Source: Candidatus Desantisbacteria bacterium CG1_02_49_89
Lineage (GTDB): Bacteria; Desantisbacteria; UBA1551
Reading direction: 5' to 3'
DNA length: 10,685 nucleotides
Assembly (NCBI GenBank): GCA_001871075.1
Contig: MNUP01000145.1
Coordinates: 1 to 10,685 of the forward strand
A program made the translations under genes and the position numbers. The notes beneath the pieces were generated by a model, which had not been told where the DNA came from, did no database searches, and saw nothing but the letters and a program-made list of their open reading frames with translations. This document shows positions 1,119 to 7,736 of this stretch, in pieces (position 1 is the first letter of the stretch; every line of letters begins with the position of its first letter).

Positions 1119-2384
1119 CGTGCCCATCTCCCAGCTTTCCAGGTATTTGTGCTGCTCTTTGCTCAGCGTGTCTATTTTTACGCCCATAGATATGAGCTTA
1201 AGCCTCGCTATTTCACGGTCTATCGCTTCCGGAACCGGGTACACCTTGTTATCAAGCTGCTTCCCTTTCCTGACCATGAATTCCACTGAAAGCGACTGGT
1301 TTGCGAAGCTCATGTCCATCACGGACGCGGGATGCCCTTCCGCAGCTGCCAGGTTTATAAGCCTTCCCTCGCCAAGCAGGAATATCTTTTTCCCGTTTTT
1401 CAGCCTGTATTCCTCCACGGAATCCCTGACAACTCTTTTGCCGGACGAAAGTTTTTTCAGGTCGGGTATTGACAACTCGACGTTGAAATGCCCGGAGTTC
1501 GCGACGATCGCCCCGTCTTTCATCCTGAGGAAATGCCTTCTGTCAAGGACGTTTATGTCCCCGGTGGCAGTGACGAAAACCTCTCCGATCCTGGCGGCCT
1601 CAAGCGTGGACATAACCCCGTATCCGTCCATTATCGCCTCAAGCGCCCTTACCGGACTTGCCTCGCAGACGATGACATTGGCGCCCATTCCCCGAGCCCT
1701 CATCGCTATTCCCCTGCCGCACCAGCCGTAGCCGCAGACCACGAACCTGCATCCTGCAAGCAGCTTGTTTGTGGCGCGCAGCACCCCGTCTATCGTGCTC
1801 TGGCCGGTCCCGTAGCGGTTATCAAAAAGGTGCTTTGTCTGCGCGTCGTTTACCGAGATTATGGGGTATCTCAGCACACCCTGTTTCGCCATGCTCCTCA
1901 GGCGTATCACGCCTGTGGTCGTTTCCTCGGTTCCCCCGATCACTTCTAACACGTTGACACGTTGACACGTTGACACGTTTTTATGCAGCATGCTGACCAG
2001 GTCAGCTCCGTCATCCATGGTCACATGCGGCTTTATGTCAAGCGCGCTTCTGATGTGGCTGTAATACGTCTTGTTGTCCTCGCCCTTGATCGCGAAAATG
2101 GGAATGCCGAAATCCCTGACAAGGGAAGACGCAACATCATCCTGCGTTGAAAGCGGGTTTGAAGCGCACAGCCGGACGTCAGCGCCACCGCACTTGAGCA
2201 CATCCATAAGGTTGGCTGTTTCGGTAGTCACGTGCAGGCAGGCGGAGATCCTTATGCCCTTCAGGGGCTTCTGCTTCGAGAACCTTTTTCTTATAAGCTT
2301 AAGCACAGGCATGCTCTGGCCCGCCCACTCTATCCTCAGCTTTCCCTTTGGAGCAAGTTTCATATCTTTAACGTCGTATCTCAT
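1116..2384 (-). CDS. ahcY: S-adenosylhomocysteinase (SAH hydrolase)
   Basis: This 422-residue cytoplasmic enzyme reversibly splits S-adenosylhomocysteine into adenosine and homocysteine, relieving product inhibition of methyltransferases. The start ATG has an ideal AAAGGAGG at 2391-2398. Visible family signatures are ACLHVTTET (His51), [10 protein letters not shown] (Asp125), [10 protein letters not shown] (Glu153), the K184/D188 pair in [17 protein letters not shown], the NAD-binding loop [11 protein letters not shown] at 215-225, GHFNVEL and [16 protein letters not shown]. The protein ends in YLESWEMGT, like archaeal/Thermotoga-type enzymes, without the longer C-terminal tail of the eukaryotic/proteobacterial type. 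It lies 188 bp downstream of metK, its partner in the methyl cycle. Residues 136-146, just before the substrate-contacting TEETTTG motif, are encoded by a simple 8-bp tandem repeat, which is unusual for such a conserved enzyme. No SAH riboswitch is recognisable upstream. Confidence 0.97.
1949..1979. repeat. 8-bp tandem repeat (3.9 copies) within ahcY
   Basis: The plus strand reads ACACGTTG three times in perfect tandem, followed by ACACGTT. It encodes residues 136-146 of AhcY. Each copy is read in a different frame, so the repeat leaves no protein periodicity. A change of one unit would frameshift the gene; a change of three units would not. Confidence 0.9.
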
Positions 2385-2572
2385 TCATCATCCTCCTTTA
2401 AACTCAAATTATGAGTTATGAATTATGGAATTCGAAAGCATTCTGCAAAACCACACGAGAATGTTGCCCGAAGGGCAAAATTATAAATCAGGGCTAAAGC
2501 CCTGAGTTACAATAAACACCCTTGCAGTTGATTCATAATTCAGCATTCATAATTCATAATTAATTACCTGTA
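2385..2572. repeat. Intergenic gap metK-ahcY: inverted heptamer arrays around two hairpins
   Basis: No gene is seen here. The ahcY-proximal side has TATGAGT, TATGAAT, TATGGAA (2410-2430). The metK-proximal side has ATTCATA, ATTCAGC, ATTCATA, ATTCATA, ATTAATT (2531-2565), which is the same word inverted. Between them lie two perfect hairpins at 2464-2505. The array begins seven bases beyond the metK stop codon. Confidence 0.7.
2464..2505 (-). repeat. Twin short hairpins downstream of metK
   Basis: TCAGGGC (2488-2494) pairs with GCCCTGA (2499-2505) across a 4-nt loop; TTGCCC (2464-2469) pairs with GGGCAA (2473-2478) across a 3-nt loop. In the direction of transcription the first hairpin is followed by a T-rich but interrupted stretch (TTTATAATTTT). 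It might act as a weak terminator or an RNA-processing block; there is no clean U-run. The stems differ in sequence from the twin hairpins in the other gaps but have the same layout. Confidence 0.55.
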
Positions 2573-3769: not shown

Positions 3770-3790
3770 TCTTCCCTCCTTTTAACTGAA

Positions 3791-3819
3791 GATTACGGTG
3801 ATTTTTAACTGCGATTACG
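3791..3819. repeat. 29-bp direct repeat, copy 1 (partner at 10060-10088)
   Basis: It begins GATTACGGTGATTTTTAACT and continues G-CGATTACG. The partner at 10060-10088 has the same 29 bases except A for G at position 21 (28 of 29 identical). Both sit a short distance upstream of a gene start on the minus strand (metK and the SDR). Confidence 0.85.
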
Positions 3820-3828
3820 GTGATTATT

Positions 3829-3949
3829 TAAAAACTGATTGCGGTAACAAAACAACCACTATAATCTCTTTCGTAATCACTGTAATCATCTTTTAAAATC
3901 CCGCCACTTCGGCGGGTCGCCGCAGGGGCGACACTGTAATCAGTTTTTA
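3829..3949. repeat. 12-bp perfect inverted repeat bracketing 97 bp, including a stop codon
   Basis: TAAAAACTGATT at 3829-3840 is the exact reverse complement of AATCAGTTTTTA at 3938-3949. Bases 3947-3949 are the TAA stop of the nucleotidyltransferase gene. The enclosed segment holds inverse GATTAC words and the twin hairpins at 3900-3932. Confidence 0.75.
3900..3932 (-). repeat. Twin GC-rich hairpin element, copy C
   Basis: CCCGCC (3900-3905) pairs with GGCGGG (3911-3916); GTCGCC (3916-3921) pairs with GGCGAC (3927-3932). On the minus strand this reads GTCGCCCC-TGC-GGCGACCCGCC-loop-GGCGGGATTTT. It keeps the GTC...GCCC / GGCGA..CC / GGCGGG order of copies A and B in a shorter form. Confidence 0.5.
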
Positions 3950-7537: not shown

Positions 7538-7736
7538 TTATTACTCCTCTGGAGTCAGCTCATAGCTCATAGTTCATAGCTCATAGTAAGAATTAAATTT
7601 TAATTTGTTACCATGAGCCATCAGCCATGGGTTTTATCTGCTGAAAGCTAAATGCTGGTTGGAAAATGTTAAAATCTATGTCCATCCGTAGTTAAATTTG
7701 CATTTTACAATTTGCAATTTGACTTTTGACTTATTA
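7538..7736. repeat. Intergenic gap dehydrogenase-WecA-like: heptamer arrays only
   Basis: No gene and no GC-rich hairpin pair is seen. Three heptamer tracts fill the gap. 7558-7585 reads GCTCATA, GCTCATA, GTTCATA, GCTCATA. 7612-7660 starts CATGAGC, CATCAGC, CATGGGT (inverse orientation) and decays through tttatct, gctgaaa, gctaaat, gctggtt. 7695-7736 reads AATTTGC, ATTTTAC, AATTTGC, AATTTGA, CTTTTGA, CTTATTA, up to the dehydrogenase stop codon. An AT palindrome (ATTAAA-T-TTTAAT) lies between the first two. A 5-bp hairpin, ACTCC/GGAGT (7543-7555), covers part of the downstream ribosome-binding site. Confidence 0.7.
7611..7629. repeat. Exact 19-bp copy of the word tract at 1081-1099
   Basis: CCATGAGCCATCAGCCATG is found identically at 1081-1099 and 7611-7629, each preceded by A. 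It contains the CATGAGC and CATCAGC heptamers, followed by a partial third unit. One copy ends next to ahcY, the other lies in the gap before the WecA-like gene. Confidence 0.85.

Follow-up and report, generated by a model that had tools for sequence, protein, structure and literature searches.

Short words repeated in tandem and dispersed through the gaps between bacterial genes are known from the STRR heptamers of cyanobacteria, and ERIC-type elements are intergenic inverted repeats. STRR fingerprinting was used in PMC5088731. In marine Beggiatoaceae, direct repeats of the heptamer TAACTGA have been described (MacGregor 2015, PMC4679880), and a role in translational control was proposed for these arrays. 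The precedent for small repeats lying in frame within conserved genes is that of the Rickettsia palindromic elements (RPEs; Ogata 2000, 2002), as cited in the review PMC10969869. Here we analysed a stretch of 10,685 nucleotides (the window) of contig MNUP01000145.1 from Candidatus Desantisbacteria bacterium CG1_02_49_89, in which the adenosylhomocysteinase gene ahcY carries an array of an 8-bp word. The tract is very probably a single, complete arm belonging to a non-autonomous dispersed element specific to this lineage; the arm would have replaced a tolerant loop of AhcY in frame. No earlier description of this arm family was found in the open-licence papers searched.

The ahcY gene occupies positions 1116 to 2384 on the minus strand and encodes 422 amino acids in an unbroken frame; its identity, assigned in an earlier note on this DNA, was confirmed by TIGR00936, which matched with 616 bits against a cut-off of 498. 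On the plus strand, positions 1949 to 1979 hold three copies of ACACGTTG followed by ACACGTT, which amounts to 3.9 exact copies with 100% identical units (TRF score 62), just as that note had counted them. Exact ACACGTTG words number three in the window against 0.21 expected, and at least three were reached by none of 200 shuffles. The array is antisense to ahcY and codes for AhcY residues 136-146 (11 residues), a little N-terminal of the TEETTTG motif (residues 152-158), in agreement with the first reading. Together with its conserved ends the whole arm spans 1938 to 1985 on the plus strand and codes for about residues K135-E147 (13 residues).

The structure of the arm is T-rich-C(T/G)(C/T)TG-(ACACGYTG)x4-C-TTTT, its 8-bp word also being written TGAYACGY. 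Exactly four units are present in 72 of 100 distinct arrays, five in one, and two or three recognisable units in the other 27. The inner end is kept as T-rich-C(T/G)(C/T)TG and the outer end as ACACG-C-TTTT; in gaps, the inner end often follows CCTTG and a T-rich run that closes with GTTG, and the motif CCTTGCAGTTG borders ACACGTTG arms elsewhere in the genome. The inner end of the window arm reads CTTCTAACACG (family form ACTCTGACACG) and its outer end ACACGTTTTTA (family form ACACGCTTTTA). A profile built from 72 arms, the window arm excluded, matched the latter over all 48 columns, ends included, with 44.1 bits, less than most members of the family score (median 65) but not outside their range (minimum 35). 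Rather than a microsatellite, the array is an element of fixed size.

Local expansion of the tract inside ahcY had been proposed, and the perfect identity of the units would suit a microsatellite grown from a chance seed independently of other arrays. However, the word occurs with the same ends (T-rich-CTCTG, CTTTTA) at scores of unlinked sites in this genome and in no other genome searched, and the ends of the ahcY copy belong to the profile match. A further proposal was that of a slippage switch, with ahcY toggled, in the manner of a contingency locus, whenever one 8-bp unit is gained or lost. Three does not divide the unit length, the tract lies inside the ahcY frame, and the frameshift expected on the loss of one unit stands as arithmetic, but no sign of such a loss was seen. 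Contingency tracts are generally longer and variable in number, whereas the ahcY array has only four units, as do arrays at unrelated sites genome-wide, and the arm is common to many housekeeping genes with no switch logic. The fixed copy number, the shared ends and the many sites argue against both proposals; local growth is highly improbable and a switch on ahcY is barely credible.

The search for further arrays in the genome, which had been recommended, returned 135 matches to the degenerate three-word pattern TGAYACGYTGAYACGYTGAYACG in the host genome (G000, 2.48 Mb) and none in 385 other genomes. The exact two-word string occurred 30 times in G000 and in none of 58 other genomes, and the reversed string did not occur in G000. 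A 22-mer of the array was met in nine scattered stretches among 84,980 genomes, a collection from which G000 itself was possibly excluded. The arm profile found nothing of at least 10 bits in 202 kb of G001, the one other genome of the same phylum in the comparison set. Exact 7-/8-bp tandem runs numbered 30 in 214 kb of G000, in stretches picked independently of the array, compared with 2 in the 202 kb of G001. Besides, a viral source was considered and rejected: the exact pattern was not found in viral contigs, and the degenerate pattern matched one such contig (L203), but its surroundings are a different TGACACG-rich stretch.

Of 65 arms outside genes, 56 have a start or stop codon no more than 60 nt from the outer end, and 17 have one as close to the inner end; gene edges were taken as the starts and stops of open frames of at least 120 aa, and arms in long spanning frames were excluded. 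The tract had been described as an intergenic-type word array inside ahcY, and the same arms are indeed those at gene edges in gaps. Some precede starts and others follow stops, the two groups facing opposite ways with respect to the gene. Where two neighbouring arms are separated by less than 600 bp, 15 of 18 such pairs are inverted and point their outer ends outward, and these inverted pairs fold as long hairpins; the typical paired gap copy is therefore a foldback whose terminal repeats are made of four iterated words. Long open frames running over arrays (L051, L052, L053, L060 and others) were judged to be antisense or upstream frames and not genes.

The mostly four units, the kept ends and the strong placement at gene edges would also be expected of functional binding arrays, i.e. 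four binding sites in a row for a protein that recognises DNA or RNA and acts, for instance, in controlling termination or translation, with the in-gene copies as spill-over; the role proposed for the TAACTGA arrays (PMC4679880) favours this as well. Yet arms before starts and after stops with opposite orientation do not fit a single promoter- or translation-type role, the gaps within the window use other words, and Rfam returned no family at gathering scores in the arm-bearing loci searched. We consider it unlikely that the arms are binding arrays.

The ahcY-metK gap of the window has the same architecture built from another word. Its left arm (2407 to 2432, minus strand, TRF and inverted match) consists of AATTATG-type heptamers at the ahcY-side edge, and its right arm (2531 to 2561, plus strand, TRF) of ATTCATA x4 of the same heptamer family; 2407-2432 matches 2545-2561 in inverted orientation at 16 of 17 positions. 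Between the two arms lie CCTTGCAGTTG (2520-2530), which adjoins the right one, and a GGGCTAAAGCCC stem (2491-2502). Elsewhere, CCATGAG x4 stands beside the ahcY 3' end (1081-1111), a gap-edge array of AGCTCAT x4 is found with an inverted CCATGAG-type run nearby (7557-7586 and 7611-7629), and tandem 22-23-bp units around GATTACGGTGATTTTTAA fill 3780-3845 in the gap upstream of metK. In the genome sample, 12-mers of the GATTACGGTGATTTTTAA-unit kind rank with the most frequent dispersed ones.

Apart from AhcY, complete single arms are present in the open frames of HypF, GlyS, TopA, DprA and the radical SAM protein TIGR03960, and also in those of V-ATPase subunit A, NrdG2, LipB, a PyrK-like and an MFS-like protein, and others. 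This list was drawn from selected stretches of the genome and, as the loci were picked by word match, the in-gene share of arms is a biased estimate. All in-gene arms examined carry CGTGTCAA on the sense strand, and all three codon phases occur. Since TGA recurs every 8 bases on the ACACGTTG strand, four words place a stop in each frame, whereas the CGTGTCAA strand reads in every frame as the cyclic 8-residue peptide QRVNVSTC, because 8 and 3 share no common factor. Only the CGTGTCAA-coding orientation can thus survive in genes.

As compared to solved structures, HypF has about 8 extra residues in the alignment, V-ATPase A about 31 net extra residues in an insert composed of the arm and other repeat sequence, and HacA about 41 net extra residues in a compound insert that holds further repeat sequence besides the arm. 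The arms of TopA and LipB are located towards the protein ends, and the HycI arm and the first GlyS arm precede the conserved part, where the start codon is uncertain.

The arms of PurL and HacA are broken by a 27-bp hairpin (CCTGCCCGCCAACGCTTNNTGGGYGGG), which sits between two array words at L055 (1561-1587), L057 (about 1507-1533), L068 (about 1546-1572) and L175 (near 3234). It lies in register and without duplication, its position within the word being the same each time, and looks like a site-specific insertion into the arm. In the GlyS orthologue of G001 (L219), the loop that matches GlyS residues ~650-661 of L055 carries an array of another word whose middle is hairpin-like (GTTGCAAGTTG...CAAGTTGCAAGTTG); one and the same GlyS loop holds different words, a CGTGTCAA arm in G000 and another array in G001. 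PurL (L068), HycI (L056) and HacA (L057) contain further in-frame stretches resembling other dispersed repeats (e.g. ETRPPRLCRGEVSLRRGV, SPLTPLSKGGNGG), and several repeat families therefore seem to have entered genes.

The spacing in AhcY had been described as longer than usual, and an alignment bore this out: the stretch from DDGADLVS to GGTEETTTG is four residues longer than in most of 28 homologues from other genomes and one residue longer than in G001, the single same-order relative compared. The G001 loop itself exceeds the usual length by three residues, and its sequence is unrelated and written in ordinary codons. The arm site is a variable loop whose place is taken by the array-coded residues, and the extra length of the loop is real, if small. 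AhcY is 76% identical to its G001 counterpart on both sides of the arm. This also bears on an assembly or binning artefact, which could be suspected as the genome is a 150-contig draft; ahcY is intact, and the in-gene arms examined stay in frame with the stop-free strand as sense strand, whereas random joins would break most of them. An artefact can be dismissed with near certainty.

The replacement of the AhcY loop by a dispersed arm is the reading that we favour. Arms in gaps abut a start or a stop codon with the outer end and are often matched by an inverted one on the far side of the gap. In ahcY, one arm probably supplanted the variable loop that separates DDGADLVS from GGTEETTTG and is read in frame. 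The ahcY copy is a lone arm, the best inverted match within 450 bp reaching only 12 of 24 positions. A clean arm insertion would add about 12-15 aa; on balance AhcY is longer by only 4 aa, and the radical SAM protein by 2 aa relative to G001, which suggests that the arm replaced sequence or was trimmed afterwards. We infer that the arm spread as non-autonomous DNA, either selfish or hitch-hiking, and is simply tolerated in AhcY.

No autonomous parent element was recognised, and inverted arm pairs displayed no consistent target-site duplication when judged by eye. Y1 (RAYT-like) transposases were rejected as the driver: the genome has ten matches, but seven of the eight loci checked lack an arm within 1.5 kb. 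A reverse transcriptase was likewise discarded, its one partial match being at a contig end with no arms nearby. Among the nine transposase and reverse transcriptase loci, L127 is the sole one with an arm within 1.5 kb, and none has arms flanking a transposase. On a broader view, the lineage might have a class of modular foldback elements, each arm made up of about four 7-/8-bp words, with many words per genome, which a dedicated copying enzyme puts at gene edges and whose single arms overwrite protein loops in frame, the ahcY tract being one product; we put this forward tentatively and regard it as rather doubtful.

The arms signify that a short-word repeat can be a defined dispersed element rather than a slipping microsatellite, and can supply conserved enzymes with new peptide. 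One strand that is open in all frames explains which orientation survives in genes. With these arms, the way in which such arrays spread can be put to the test, as can the neutrality of the replaced loops.

As in the STRR and TAACTGA types, the arms are short direct arrays of a lineage-specific 7-8-bp word dispersed in gaps. The likeness to STRR lies in short-word tandem arrays scattered in gaps, and the arms differ in their 8-bp unit, mostly four copies, defined ends and inverted pairing. What they have in common with TAACTGA is a 7-8-bp word confined to one lineage and set in short direct arrays (2-6 copies), mostly beside gene starts, with stops in all frames on one strand and the other strand translatable, which makes in-gene copies one-way (PMC4679880). 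Unlike TAACTGA, the arms of this genome have mostly exactly four copies, kept ends and inverted foldback pairs, and are also found after stops; single arms lie amid conserved enzymes, whereas most in-gene TAACTGA copies are confined to protein ends or to hypothetical proteins (PMC4679880).

The paired gap copies resemble MITEs and REPINs in being foldbacks of about 100-400 bp with no gene of their own (PMC10969869, PMC3116915). Terminal inverted repeats, as in MITEs, bound the paired gap copies (15 of 18 pairs) but not the lone ahcY arm. The arms are unlike MITEs, REPINs and ERIC-type elements in that their terminal inverted repeats consist of iterated words, solo arms are common, and neither a target-site duplication nor a clear transposase link was seen. 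The arms are like RPEs in being small dispersed elements in frame in unrelated conserved genes. RPEs are palindromes of about 150 bp (PMC10969869), whereas the in-gene unit of this genome is a single ~40-48-bp arm of four tandem words, and the ahcY arm accordingly is no palindromic ~150-bp copy. The arm family combines traits of TAACTGA and of RPEs, and adds to them mostly four-word arms in inverted pairs.
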